Shown here piece by piece: positions 2,642-7,921 of a DNA stretch of 56,583 nucleotides. The stretch is from NCBI GenBank assembly GCA_947451045.1, contig CANFXM010000002.1, positions 1 to 56,583 on the forward strand. The letters run 5' to 3'. The first letter of the stretch is position 1. Each line of letters opens with the position of its first letter. Under the pieces are notes generated by a model. That model was not told the DNA's origin. It saw only the letters and a list, made by a program, of their open reading frames with translations, and did not search any database. This DNA is from Actinomycetota bacterium (GTDB lineage Bacteria; Actinomycetota; Actinomycetes; Nanopelagicales; Nanopelagicaceae). A program made the translations under genes and the position numbers.

Positions 2642-2968
2642 TTATTTTTCTCGATCTTCTCTTTCAAAAGCTTCAAGGTCTGGTTTTGGAATCTGGGGAA
2701 CATCCCCCCGCATAAGTCGTTTCCATAAATAGATTGCAATTCCCGCAAAAAGGGGCCATTCAAATGTGTAAACCCACGCACGCCAATTGCCGCTTTGAGC
2801 ACGACCAAATTCAAACCATCCCGCCCACATGCATGCTGGAAAAACACAAATCAAAGTAGCTGTCAAAATTATTTTTTGTTTTTGAGATGGCTCTCCAGTT
2901 GATTTCTCTTTGGTTGGATCTAATTCATCGCGAACCCATTGAGGTGCCTGGAACTCATCCTTATCCAT
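2642..2968 (-). CDS. Small membrane protein (two predicted TM segments), next to ctaG
   Basis: 108-aa ORF with hydrophobic stretches IILTATLICVFPACMWAGW and WPLFAGIAIYLW. It abuts the ctaG start. Confidence 0.6.
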   Translation of the reverse strand: MDKDEFQAPQWVRDELDPTKEKSTGEPSQKQKIILTATLICVFPACMWAGWFEFGRAQSGNWRAWVYTFEWPLFAGIAIYLWKRLMRGDVPQIPKPDLEAFEREDREK

Positions 2969-3798
2969 TATTCGAAATCTCGAATCATTTTCTTCTCTGC
3001 AGCAATCTCAGCATCAACTTCGATTGATTTTAGTTCCTCAGATTTAATCCAGTTGTAGACAGCAAATGCCATCCAAACAGTGTCAATGATCATTGCGCCA
3101 GACCACATAAGTGAGCCACCTCGACGTTGATCCGTGAGTTCGTACATGTTGTCGTAAAGGGAGCCTGGGTTTGTGTAAATAAAGAACCCAGTCAATGTTT
3201 CAGGCACCATCATGAGAAAAAGTGAAATCACAGAAAATGCAGGTGACATTCGTCGATTAGTCAGATTGCGATCCAATAGATTGAAATAAAAGAAATAGGG
3301 TAAAAGAATATAAAGAGGAACTTCGAAATATGTATGTGCCCAAGGGTGATTCATGATGTATCCGTGTGGAACTGGAAGGTGCACACCAATCATCAACGCG
3401 GCATATAAGAGCCAGCTAATCCAAGGATTAGTAAGAGTTATAAAAATACGATTCGTAGGATGGAATGTATTGGGAGTGCCAAGCACTAGAAGCGGGCCGC
3501 TAATCATCATCAACGTAATGTGCTGAGTCATGTGTAATGAGAAATAATCCATCGCGCGAGCGCCAACTGGAGTTATAAGAACAGCAAGAATTGAACTCAA
3601 TCCAGAGAAGAAAAATACCTGTTGACGCAACGTGACGCTGTGTTCAGACTTTTTAGTTTCACGTATATATATGTATGCAATCAAAAATAGAGGAATTAGA
3701 ATTTCGGGGGCTAATTGCCACGAATTCCAAACACTAATGTTGTGATGATGCATATCCATGATTGAGGCAGGGTAGACCCGATTTGAGAAATTGTGCAC
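2968..3798 (-). CDS. ctaG: Cytochrome c oxidase assembly protein, CtaG (caa3-type) family
   Basis: Polytopic His-rich membrane protein (LHMTQHITLMMISGPLLVLGTP, LPVPHGYIMNHPWAHTYFEVPLYILLPYFFYFNLLDR), divergent to the oxidase genes. Confidence 0.8.
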   Translation of the reverse strand: MHNFSNRVYPASIMDMHHHNISVWNSWQLAPEILIPLFLIAYIYIRETKKSEHSVTLRQQVFFFSGLSSILAVLITPVGARAMDYFSLHMTQHITLMMISGPLLVLGTPNTFHPTNRIFITLTNPWISWLLYAALMIGVHLPVPHGYIMNHPWAHTYFEVPLYILLPYFFYFNLLDRNLTNRRMSPAFSVISLFLMMVPETLTGFFIYTNPGSLYDNMYELTDQRRGGSLMWSGAMIIDTVWMAFAVYNWIKSEELKSIEVDAEIAAEKKMIRDFE

Positions 3799-3973: not shown

Positions 3974-4663
3974 ATGAATAAGCGGATTATCGCCGCATTC
4001 GGAACCGTGATCTTAGGCGCAGCAGTTATCGCTGGAATCGGAACGTATGTGGCATCGGCAAAGAATGATTCACGAGTACTTGCGGCAACAGCTGCGGGAA
4101 CCATGGATACACCTCAAGGAACTTTGCCTCACTACACATTAGCTATTTCTACTTATCCAGACAGCATGGCGGGTAGTCACGGTAAAGATGGTGGCGCACA
4201 TCCCGGATACGTAACGTATGGCCCTGTAACTAATTTTGAAGTGCCAGCACACTCGGCAATTACTATCACTGTCACAAATTATGATAGTGGTGAAAGTTTG
4301 AACAACGATTATTTCAGAGTTGTACGCGGAACCGTCGGTGGAACGGCAACCCTCAATGGAGAAGTAATTCGCTCAATCCCAACAGATAAAGTTGGACACA
4401 CTTTTACAGTTCATGGAATGGCTAATGAAAATTCAGAACTTTTCTTTAGCGTCCCACTAAAGGCTGTTCCTGAAGAAAATATGCCTGAAGAGGGATACAC
4501 AAAGAAGCCAAACGTCACGACATTCACTGTTATCACTGGTAATGCTGGAGAGTACGTATGGAACTGTGAATATCCATGTGGTGATGGAACGATTGCAAAA
4601 TTTGGCGCAGTCATGTCAACAATGGGTTATATGTCCGGCCACTTCAACGTCGTGAATAGCTAA
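3974..4663 (+). CDS. Membrane-anchored cupredoxin-domain protein
   Basis: N-terminal TM/signal, then a beta-sandwich-like region with GHTFTVHGM and GEYVWNCEYPCGDGTIAKFGAVMSTMGYMSGHFNVV. First gene of the cox cluster. Confidence 0.65.
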   Translation: MNKRIIAAFGTVILGAAVIAGIGTYVASAKNDSRVLAATAAGTMDTPQGTLPHYTLAISTYPDSMAGSHGKDGGAHPGYVTYGPVTNFEVPAHSAITITVTNYDSGESLNNDYFRVVRGTVGGTATLNGEVIRSIPTDKVGHTFTVHGMANENSELFFSVPLKAVPEENMPEEGYTKKPNVTTFTVITGNAGEYVWNCEYPCGDGTIAKFGAVMSTMGYMSGHFNVVNS

Positions 4664-4674
4664 GGGGCGCGAAT

Positions 4675-5442
4675 ATGTCACTCGATACTGAAAAAACTCC
4701 ACAATGGTGGAAGAAGAAAGATGTTAAGCAAACATTTGTAATTTGGGTAATCCTTACTCCAATTATTGGATATGTCGGATCGACAGTTCAAATTCGTTCG
4801 ATGGGCGCACCTGCATCAGAGACAATGGCGAGCGTTATCAACCTCATGGGACTTTTCACATGGGTAGCAGCACCGGTTGCAGCATTGGTTGGAGCAATGT
4901 GTTTGACAACTTTGCTTACAAAGAGTCACTATGGCGATAACCCGCCACATGAGGCCGAGAATGAAATTCGTAACTCTCCTCGCGCAAATGCAATCTGGGT
5001 TTCAATATCAGCTCTTCTTTGTTTGTTCGCACTAGTTGTCGGATTAATCGTGCTTCAAAAAGATGCTGGAGCACTTACTGATAAAGCAGCGATGAATATT
5101 AATGTCACTGGTCAACAGTGGGTTTGGAACTATGACTACGAAAATGGAGCGAGAAGTTCCGTTCTTTACCTTCCAGTCAATAAACCTGTGGTCTTTCATG
5201 TAACAAGCAAAGATGTAAAGCACTCTTTCTGGGTAGTTCAAATGGGCATAAAGATTGATGCGAATCCAGGCTACGTAACTGAGACAGCGGTTACTCCGAA
5301 CAAGATTGGCGTGTTTGATATTAGGTGCGCCGAACTTTGCGGATTGCTTCATGCATACATGCAAAATAAAGTTCACGTTGTAAGTCAGGCTGATTACGAC
5401 GCGTGGGTAAAAACTAATGCGACAACGGAGGCAGCAGCCTGA
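4675..5442 (+). CDS. coxB: Cytochrome c oxidase subunit II
   Basis: CuA motif CAELCGLLHAYM, GQQWVWNYDY, and KHSFWVVQMGIKIDANPG; two N-terminal TM helices. Confidence 0.93.
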   Translation: MSLDTEKTPQWWKKKDVKQTFVIWVILTPIIGYVGSTVQIRSMGAPASETMASVINLMGLFTWVAAPVAALVGAMCLTTLLTKSHYGDNPPHEAENEIRNSPRANAIWVSISALLCLFALVVGLIVLQKDAGALTDKAAMNINVTGQQWVWNYDYENGARSSVLYLPVNKPVVFHVTSKDVKHSFWVVQMGIKIDANPGYVTETAVTPNKIGVFDIRCAELCGLLHAYMQNKVHVVSQADYDAWVKTNATTEAAA

Positions 5443-7322
5443 TGACAACAACAATGGATCGACCAGCATCGGCACCAGGACAATCTCGCAGAAGTAAGCC
5501 ACTCATTGAGAGACTTAATATCTTCACCGCATTAGCGCTAGGTGCAATAAGCGCACTAGTTGTTTGGCAGTTAGCTTTGCACTTCTTGCCACAACTCCCA
5601 GACGGTCAACAGTATTTCAACCGCGAAGACAAGATCACGCTACTTTCAATGGTTGCATGGTTTATTGGATTCATGACTGGAATTGGAGCCCTTATAGGTC
5701 CATTCCGTTGGTTGATGGGTAAAGATCTTTCACATGATGAAAATATGTTTTATGCTGGAAAAGATTTAGGCGTAAAGCGTTATTTCCGCTACACAACAGA
5801 TCACAAAGTCGTGGGTATTCAATATCTTGTAATGACAATGTTGATTTTCTTTATTGGTGGAACACTTGCGATGCTTATCCGTACAAACTTGGGTCATCCT
5901 CAAGGAGGCTGGATTCATCCTCAGGCATATAACTCCATTGTTGGTACTCACGGAATCATCATGATTGTTGGAACAATCATTATGGTGACAGGACCATTTG
6001 GTAACTTCATTATGCCAATCATGATCGGTGCTCGCGATATGGCATTCCCTCGTTTGAATGCTTTGAGCTTCTGGCTCATCGTTGCAGCTGCTGTTCCATT
6101 GATTTGGGGTCAGTTCATTGGTGGCATCACTACCGGTTGGACTGCATACAACCCACTTGCTTCTCAAGCACCATTGGGAATGGATGGATACATCATGTTT
6201 ATTTGTATCTTTGCTATTTCTACAATGGTTGCAGGCGCAAATATCACAACAACAGTTATTCGTATGCGCGCAAAGGGTATGACCTGGAATCGCACACCAA
6301 TCTTTATTTACGGAACTGTGGCATCAGTTGCTCTCGCACTTCCTGCATTCCCAGTCTTCTTCTTGTCACAAATTATGTCGGCAATGGATCGTGCGCTTGG
6401 CACATCTTTCTATGACACAACACATGGTGGCAGTGGTTGGTTATACGAGAATCTTTTCTGGATTATGGGTCACCCAGAGGTGTACGTAATTCTTATACCT
6501 GCAGTTGCAGCGCTTATGGAGATGGCTCCGGTCTTCGCCCGTAATCCGCTCTTTAGCTTTAATATTGCTGTGTTAGGTATTGCAGGAATTTCTGGTCTAT
6601 CAGTTCTCGTATGGGCACACCATATGTACATGGCCGGATGGGCCCCACTTCTTAATGCACCATTTATGTTGACGACAGAATTGATTTCGATTCCAACCGG
6701 AATGCTCTTCTTGGTTCTGGTGGGCACGTTATGGCGCGGCAGACTATGGGTCACAATGCCAATGGCATCAATTTTTGCGTTGCTCTGGAACTTTATGATT
6801 GGTGGAATTACTGGAATTTATCTTTCAGATGTTCCAGCAGATGCCTTCTTGCACGGTTCAATGTATGTAACCGCGCACTTCCATTACACATTGATGGGCG
6901 CAGGACTTACAGGCGCACTTGCATCTCTCGTGTATTGGTTCCCAAAAATGACTGGTCGTATGTTTGATAAGAAGCTAAGTTGGATTTCATTCTGGATGGT
7001 TCAGATTGGCTTCAACGTAGCGTTTATGGGCATGTTCTTAGTTGGCCTTGCTGGTCAACCACGTCGTGTTGAAACATATGCAAAGATGTTTAGTCGCGGT
7101 AACTTGATTACAACGATTGGTGCGTATGTCATCATGGCAGGAATGCTCGTACTTCTACATGGAGTTATTTCATCATGGCGACACGGTGTGAAAGCACCAA
7201 TGAATCCATGGCAAGCAAAGACTTTAGAGTGGAGTGTTGCTAACCCAATTCCACTTGAAAACTTTGATGTTCTCCCAGTAGTTACAGCCGATGCTTACGG
7301 ATATGGAAAGGCAAAGTCATGA
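5442..7322 (+). CDS. coxA: Cytochrome c oxidase subunit I (divergent A-family haem-copper oxidase)
   Basis: THGIIMI (haem ligand His), GHPEVY (Glu plus Tyr cross-link site), WAHHMY and HFHYTL (CuB/haem a3 ligands), GQPRR. Confidence 0.95.
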   Translation: MTTTMDRPASAPGQSRRSKPLIERLNIFTALALGAISALVVWQLALHFLPQLPDGQQYFNREDKITLLSMVAWFIGFMTGIGALIGPFRWLMGKDLSHDENMFYAGKDLGVKRYFRYTTDHKVVGIQYLVMTMLIFFIGGTLAMLIRTNLGHPQGGWIHPQAYNSIVGTHGIIMIVGTIIMVTGPFGNFIMPIMIGARDMAFPRLNALSFWLIVAAAVPLIWGQFIGGITTGWTAYNPLASQAPLGMDGYIMFICIFAISTMVAGANITTTVIRMRAKGMTWNRTPIFIYGTVASVALALPAFPVFFLSQIMSAMDRALGTSFYDTTHGGSGWLYENLFWIMGHPEVYVILIPAVAALMEMAPVFARNPLFSFNIAVLGIAGISGLSVLVWAHHMYMAGWAPLLNAPFMLTTELISIPTGMLFLVLVGTLWRGRLWVTMPMASIFALLWNFMIGGITGIYLSDVPADAFLHGSMYVTAHFHYTLMGAGLTGALASLVYWFPKMTGRMFDKKLSWISFWMVQIGFNVAFMGMFLVGLAGQPRRVETYAKMFSRGNLITTIGAYVIMAGMLVLLHGVISSWRHGVKAPMNPWQAKTLEWSVANPIPLENFDVLPVVTADAYGYGKAKS

Positions 7323-7921
7323 GCGTAGAAACACATGCACATCACGAACATCCTGATGTTGTTGGAAGTCGCAACCGCCTAGGAGTAATTCTGATTCTGG
7401 TTGCAGATATCGCCTTTGCACTCAGCATGCTCTTTGTTTATTTCTATCTTCGAATGCAAAATGTCAACGATATGTGGCTTCCAAAAGCTACTGCTGATGT
7501 TCCTGCGACAACTCCTATTTCTAGTTCTACCGGCTACACAATTACTGCGATCATGGCAGTTGGATTACTTGCTCATTTTTATGGGCTCAAAGGAATTCAA
7601 GCTAAGAATCAAACGCAGTTGAAACTTGGCGGACAAGTCGCTTTGATTCTTTCCCTAGTTGGCCTTGGATACCAATTCAACACAATTGCTAGCTCACCAT
7701 TCACTTTCAATTCTGGTGGATATGCATCATGTTTCTATTTGATAACTATCTTGAACTTCGTCCACATAGTTTTGACTGTTTTCATCGCACTGGGCAATTG
7801 GAATCGTTCACGACTTGGACTTTATAAAGCCGATCACTGGCACGTCAATATCGTCAACGTGTGGTGGATCTGGATGACTGTGTCATCATTACTAGGTGCC
7901 TTCGCTCTCTCCTTCACCTAA
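7319..7921 (+). CDS. coxC: Cytochrome c oxidase subunit III-like
   Basis: 200 aa with about five TM helices, immediately after coxA with a 4-bp overlap. ADHWHVNIVNVWWIW resembles the COX3 YWHFVDxVW segment. Confidence 0.8.
   Translation: MSVETHAHHEHPDVVGSRNRLGVILILVADIAFALSMLFVYFYLRMQNVNDMWLPKATADVPATTPISSSTGYTITAIMAVGLLAHFYGLKGIQAKNQTQLKLGGQVALILSLVGLGYQFNTIASSPFTFNSGGYASCFYLITILNFVHIVLTVFIALGNWNRSRLGLYKADHWHVNIVNVWWIWMTVSSLLGAFALSFT

Follow-up and report, generated by a model that had tools for sequence, protein, structure and literature searches.

Organization of the oxidase locus

The window analysed here, by which we mean the whole stretch of 56,583 nucleotides, comes from a small actinobacterial genome (assembly of 1.39 Mb; 96% complete, 73 contigs) and carries a four-gene operon that encodes a cupredoxin-like protein followed by subunits II, I and III of a haem-copper oxidase (COX2, COX1 and COX3). 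The genes and features to which we refer are as follows:

2642–2968, minus strand: small membrane protein, overlapping the CtaG gene and kept near three related oxidase loci
2968–3798, minus strand: CtaG-like oxidase assembly factor of the Caa3_CtaG family (PF09678, E = 2.7e-36), divergent to the operon
3974–4663, plus strand: cupredoxin-like protein, secreted or anchored (fold likeness, tracking of the oxidase, invariant residues)
4675–5442, plus strand: COX2 (TIGR02866, 147.8 bits against a cut-off of 147.7; PF00116; complete CuA motif)
4987–4989, plus strand: codon of the COX2 residue Asn105, in place of the Glu that marks the entrance of the K-channel (Rhodobacter E101-II, bovine E62-II; alignment)
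5326–5361, plus strand: CuA motif of COX2, complete (CAELCGLLHAYM; motif match)
5442–7322, plus strand: COX1, subunit I of an A-type haem-copper oxidase, lacking the K-channel Lys (PF00115, E = 2e-118)
5520–5684, plus strand: two extra N-terminal transmembrane helices, residues 27–48 and 61–81 (AlphaFold2, helix pLDDT >90)
6003–6059, plus strand: D-channel entry N188-D199-N206, intact (sequence)
6471–6485, plus strand: HPEVY, with CuB ligand H344, D-channel Glu346 and active-site Tyr348 (sequence)
6516–6518, plus strand: Met359, at the K-channel Ser (Rhodobacter S299; alignment column)
6678–6689, plus strand: helix VIII stretch bounded by Glu413 and Ser416 (bovine M310/A313, Rhodobacter M353/A356; alignment)
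6705–6707, plus strand: codon for Leu422, at the K-channel Lys (bovine K319, Rhodobacter K362; alignment column)
7319–7921, plus strand: COX3, divergent (PF00510, E = 2.6e-9)

The three subunit genes are joined by start–stop overlaps: the start of COX1 overlaps the stop of COX2 in the sequence ATGA, and the start of COX3 in turn overlaps the stop of COX1. The small membrane protein is 41–47% identical (blastp) to its relatives at the three other loci (L033, L035 and L037), and a Pfam search with it gave no match. A repetitive secreted Big_2/Ig-like protein, encoded at 766–2640 of the window, adjoins the oxidase cluster.

COX1 is an A-type subunit I

Judged by its motifs, the 626-residue COX1 is a complete A-type haem-copper oxidase subunit I. 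The catalytic motifs that had been listed in the initial annotation are all present, namely, THG (residue 169), HPEVY (344), WAHHMY (391), HFHYTL (479) and PRR (540), and the ligands of haem a, haem a3 and CuB are kept without exception (H170, H344, H393, H394, H479 and H481). The same annotation listed the D-channel positions N-x10-D-x6-N as present, and Y128, N188, D199, N206, S209, N267 and E346 are all retained; the motif GNFIMPIMIGARDMAFPRLN lies at residue 187. The AlphaFold2 model has a confident A-type fold (mean pLDDT 90), for which the top Foldseek matches are the mycobacterial and corynebacterial aa3 enzymes, R. sphaeroides aa3 and bo3, with 37–39% sequence identity to the closest solved structures. 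Against the CtaD/CoxA equivalog profile TIGR02891, COX1 returns an E-value of 1e-155 and a score of 519.3 bits, which is below the curated cut-off of 670.75 bits. In a tree with outgroups, it falls with family A and apart from types B and C and the NO reductases (NORs), on a branch with 96% SH-aLRT support that carries a long-branch warning.

Type A is defined by D- and K-channel residues that include the Lys (PMC3084760). With the A1 enzymes (mycobacterial aa3, Thermus caa3 and R. sphaeroides aa3), the window oxidase shares the fold, the ligands, the active-site Tyr, CuA and a D-channel with its Glu; it differs from them in lacking the K-channel Lys and Ser in subunit I and the entrance Glu in subunit II, and in having a new helix VIII Glu/Ser pair, two additional helices at the N-terminus and an operon gene for a cupredoxin-like protein. 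The Lys is also missing from types B (ba3) and C (cbb3), but these have no D-channel and use an alternative K-channel of Ser, Thr and Tyr (PMC3084760), whereas COX1 keeps its D-channel, has Leu at the K position and groups with family A.

The N-terminal extension of about two transmembrane helices ahead of the usual first helix, as had been proposed from the sequence, is seen in the AlphaFold2 model. It had been read together with the loss of the Lys, but it does not belong to that trait: Lys-bearing oxidases, for example, L020, L024 and L029, have the extension too, and a link between the extra helices and the loss of the K-channel is, therefore, rejected.

The K-pathway is lost from both subunits

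To compare channel residues, we aligned 212 COX1 sequences, 75 without the Lys and 137 with it. They were collected by similarity to the window sequence from 397 Actinomycetota, 399 Pseudomonadota, 251 Chloroflexota and 200 Bacillota genomes, together with GTDB contigs and genomes of the same genus, so that the frequencies given below are not those of family A overall. The absence of the K-channel Lys is borne out: helix VIII reads MLTTELISIPTGMLFLVL, with Leu422 at the Lys position, and the alignment has no Lys on a neighbouring helix turn. The Leu422 column is Lys in 137/137 Lys-bearing sequences and mostly hydrophobic in the clade to which COX1 belongs (see below); similarly, the Met359 column is Ser in 93% (Thr in 6%) of the Lys-bearing sequences, and most members of the clade have a hydrophobic residue or Gly there. 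From the K-channel set Lys354/Thr351/Ser291 (P. denitrificans numbering), COX1 keeps only the Thr, as Thr419, alongside Tyr348; the position of Rhodobacter T352 is also kept as Thr.

The LTTELIS segment, to which the initial annotation had pointed in connection with alternative polar residues, was an apt choice, as its Glu and Ser are invariant: Glu413 and Ser416 are each present in 100% of the 67-member clade. The helix VIII Glu is found in 68 of the 75 Lys-less sequences versus none of the 137 that bear the Lys, and the column of Ser416 is Ala in 92% of the latter. A simple helical-wheel count, which uses no coordinates, gives an angle of ~140 degrees between Glu413 and the side of helix VIII that faces the K-channel; consequently, a direct exchange of Lys for Glu within the same channel would be unlikely.

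The changes extend to subunit II, where the entrance Glu is kept in 116/116 scorable Lys-bearing enzymes and lost from 67 of the 68 scorable Lys-less ones (L168, with an X at this position, is left out of the count); the single exception is L037, a member of the clade. The losses of the Lys, the Ser and the subunit II Glu together show, at the level of sequence, that the K-pathway has been dismantled in both subunits, rather than mutated at one site.

A tree of 197 rows, calculated with the helix VIII columns removed, resolves four independent losses of the Lys: in the main clade, in L031, in a Pseudomonadota group that includes Methylopumilus, and in the pair L083 and L163. E101(II) is lost in four of these four events and the helix VIII Glu is gained in two (sign test on the four events, p = 0.125). 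As one clade dominates the sample, it is these four events that constitute the independent evidence, which is consistent, but alone not statistically decisive.

The Pseudomonadota A-type oxidases without the Lys (L067, L070, L108, L060 and L081, including Ca. Methylopumilus) are also without the helix VIII Glu; the subunit II Glu is missing wherever it can be scored, and they carry a PLAVLFF or P[IV]GLM motif. L083, from Roseovarius spongiae, and L163 are very divergent A-type COX1 sequences in which the Lys is replaced by Ser or Gln and the D-channel is altered; in L083, Trp also takes the place of the helix VI Glu.

A distinct subfamily of A-type oxidases

COX1 of the window falls in a single clade with 67 members, which come from Actinomycetota, Chloroflexota and, in a few cases, Bacillota; every member lacks the Lys and has the helix VIII Glu and Ser. 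Seven aligned orthologues from the same genus, with 82–89% identity, share the same helix VIII state. The sample of 399 Pseudomonadota genomes contains no close member of the clade, and a plasmid search for named members returned, among the matches listed, only oxidases of 37–41% identity, none of them close.

Three subgroups can be recognized within the clade. The first (29 sequences, including the window) has HPEVY and an intact D-channel, and the second (23 sequences) has HPEVY, with mostly Arg in place of D132 and mostly Glu in place of N139; in the third (15 sequences), the motif is of the SHPAVY type, with Ala for the helix VI Glu and with D132 and N139 intact. The second, D132R-type subgroup is thus without both canonical proton channels, yet its ligands, Tyr and helix VI Glu are kept. 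Among its members are L011, L012, L013, L015, L017, L037 and L039, as well as L179–L182, L184, L186, L188, L189 and L192.

Outside the K-pathway, the main clade has lost bovine W323, bovine H413 (to Phe) and S299, and has gained an Asn at 450, in helix IX, and an Asp at 463. Asn450 is co-conserved with Glu413 in 80–91% of the clade, and the two could be in contact. L031 (G150:C129) has the helix VIII Glu and Ser and a hydrophobic residue at the K position, has lost the subunit II Glu and is without Asn450; its background is otherwise canonical, with W426 and H532 kept, and it lies inside the canonical clade (93–99% support). With the same helix VIII in such a nested position, L031 must either have converged on this state or have acquired it by recombination.

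The initial annotation had suggested a distinct subfamily or altered proton uptake. The first of these stands, with an addition: on the evidence of the alignment and trees, the window COX1 belongs to a real, distinct subfamily of A-type oxidase, namely the 67-member clade, with L031 as a convergent case, in which the helix VIII Glu and Ser occur and the Lys does not. The second goes only so far as being strongly suggested by the sequences, because the K-pathway is removed in subunit II too.

Whether this is a Lys-less clade already described can be answered in part. In PMC8239418 (Degli Esposti et al. 2021), COX1 proteins with two extra N-terminal helices (‘2TM’) from iron-oxidizing and other bacteria are basal in family A, repeated loss of the K-channel within family A is reported on an archaeal tree, and K-channel variants are discussed; the absence of the K-channel as such is, therefore, not new. 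The 2TM proteins resemble the window COX1 in combining family A membership with the extra helices; in the present set, the extra helices occur both with and without the Lys. A literature search, supplements aside, found no text on the helix VIII Glu/Ser signature, on a link between this signature and the loss of the subunit II Glu, or on the D132R subgroup.

Members of the clade are common among Actinomycetota and Chloroflexota, where annotation would read just ‘cytochrome c oxidase subunit I’. The need of A-type oxidases for two proton inputs and the task of the K-channel have long been under question, and most of the work has used crippling point mutants (the reasons for expecting one or two protons per cycle via the K-channel are given in PMC8079940). 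The clade offers natural enzymes from which the K-pathway has been cleanly removed in both subunits and which have a candidate replacement residue, together with a sister subgroup in which the D-channel entry is gone as well.

Possible routes for the protons of the reductive phase

We infer that Glu413 and Ser416 are the best candidate for a replacement proton route. The explanation that we favour, to which we assign an even chance, is that the enzyme is a functional A-family O2 reductase of the cytochrome c/cupredoxin type that has lost its K-pathway as a whole and in which Glu413 and Ser416 form a relay, and that it is put to accessory use. Electrons would reach CuA from cytochrome c and/or the cupredoxin encoded next to the oxidase, and then pass to haem a; the protons of the reductive half, which normally reach the active-site Tyr via the K-channel, would now be drawn from the D-pathway or pass along a rearranged helix VIII, and the invariant, buried Glu413 and Ser416 would supply a protonatable group and a water site in place of the Lys relay. 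The enzyme would serve as an accessory oxidase beside the canonical ctaD enzyme. In its favour are the intact ligands, Tyr and D-channel, the losses in both subunits and in each of the four lineages, the state of L031, the full conservation of Glu413 and Ser416 in the clade, the canonical ctaD in the same genome, a cupredoxin gene that tracks the oxidase, and the haem A synthase gene. Several points count against this explanation: in known enzymes, loss of the Lys nearly abolishes turnover; the helical wheel turns Glu413 away from the K-channel face; L037, within the clade, retains the subunit II Glu; the sign test on four events gives only p = 0.125; two of the four K-less lineages are without the Glu, which is, therefore, not obligatory; and the 23-sequence subgroup is also without the D-channel Asp and Asn, so that takeover by the D-pathway cannot be general. 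A more ambitious form of the proposal, which we advance tentatively and regard as somewhat doubtful, is that the reductive-phase relay of A-type oxidases has moved to Glu353/Ser356 (Rhodobacter numbering), that this evolved at least twice and characterizes a widespread subfamily, and that one branch, lacking both channels, would need a wholly different route.

The strongest alternative, albeit an unlikely one, is that the K-pathway was lost unreplaced: all substrate protons would travel through the D-channel, whereas Glu413, Ser416 and Asn450 would make a structural contact between helices VIII and IX that fills the space of the Lys. Several observations agree with this: the window and 45 of the 68 Glu-bearing sequences have the full Asp/Asn entry of the D-channel, Asn450 accompanies Glu413 to the extent noted above, two K-less lineages do without the Glu, and mutants without the Lys still make the first reduction step, as stated in PMC8079940, citing Ganesan and Gennis. 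However, a purely structural role sits uneasily with a Glu that is universal in the clade and was regained in L031, where Asn450 is missing; moreover, a buried Glu would presumably be costly to keep for structure alone.

The Lys might instead never have been present, with the clade retaining a state of family A that predates the K-channel; an argument of this kind has been made for 2TM COX1 from acidophilic iron oxidizers. The basal placement of two-extra-helix COX1 and the discussion of K-channel variants in PMC8239418 are in keeping with this, as is midpoint rooting, which separates the clade from the rest. Nevertheless, when B, C and cNOR sequences serve as outgroups, family A begins with a multifurcation in the set compared, and the three remaining lineages without the Lys clearly lie within Lys-bearing clades; we consider an ancestral absence quite improbable.

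It is very improbable that COX1 is a NOR-like or degenerate enzyme, rather than an O2 reductase. cNOR likewise has a Glu in helix VIII and no K-channel (PMC3431322), and cNOR and qNOR share with the window COX1 a helix VIII carboxylate and the lack of the Lys; against this, their Glu is two residues away, and COX1 keeps the oxidase Tyr and all of the ligands and has a CuA subunit. The NOR fingerprints H-x-Arom-x-E and HH-x-Arom-Arom-x17-E (PMC3084760) are absent: COX1 has HPEVY instead, and Glu413 stands at +19 from the second His, not at +21. Equating Glu413 with cNOR Glu280 was considered and rejected, as the cNOR Glu pairs with Ile415 in both profile and multiple alignments. Finally, an artefact of assembly or sequencing, or chance divergence of a single gene, for which only the division of the assembly into many contigs might speak, can be dismissed as next to impossible given the shared helix VIII state of the seven orthologues, the spread of the clade across phyla, and the uninterrupted reading frame, whose start and stop overlap the neighbouring genes of an intact operon.

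The cupredoxin-like protein and the accessory role of the gene set

The protein encoded at 3974–4663 is cupredoxin-like and is probably a dedicated electron donor, with CuA as the candidate acceptor, or an extra Cu domain, and it is possible that it represents a new family of dedicated donors. Its gene lies beside 41 of the 52 loci of the two HPEVY-type subgroups, beside none of the 137 Lys-bearing loci and beside no others; within the genus, it is present in 7 of the 9 genomes with the K-less oxidase and in 0 of the 16 without, the assemblies of the remaining two showing only part of the oxidase gene. The invariant residues H142, C198, C202, M214 and M220 are candidate ligands. In the predicted model (pLDDT 73), the fold resembles those of the cupredoxins auracyanin and rusticyanin, the best match being auracyanin (E = 1.6e-4, TM 0.35–0.54); a profile search of PDB sequences gave nothing significant, and there was no Pfam match above cut-off. 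The candidates H, C, C and M differ from the ligands of blue copper proteins in having Cys in place of the second His. The CxxxC of the protein is like that of the CuA motif, without the second His of CuA.

The second, canonical ctaD for which the initial annotation advised a search was found on another contig of the same genome (G000:C31, L001); this enzyme keeps both the Lys and the subunit II Glu, and a haem A synthase gene is also present in the genome. Across the genus, a canonical-type oxidase occurs in 25/25 genomes searched, and the K-less oxidase in nine of the 25, that of the window included. The K-less gene set is an accessory oxidase beside the canonical ctaD, missing from most species of the genus. 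In the canonical COX2 of the same genome (L001:638-1399), the CuA motif reads CNMLC, versus CxExC, and the CuA Glu is, therefore, Met there.
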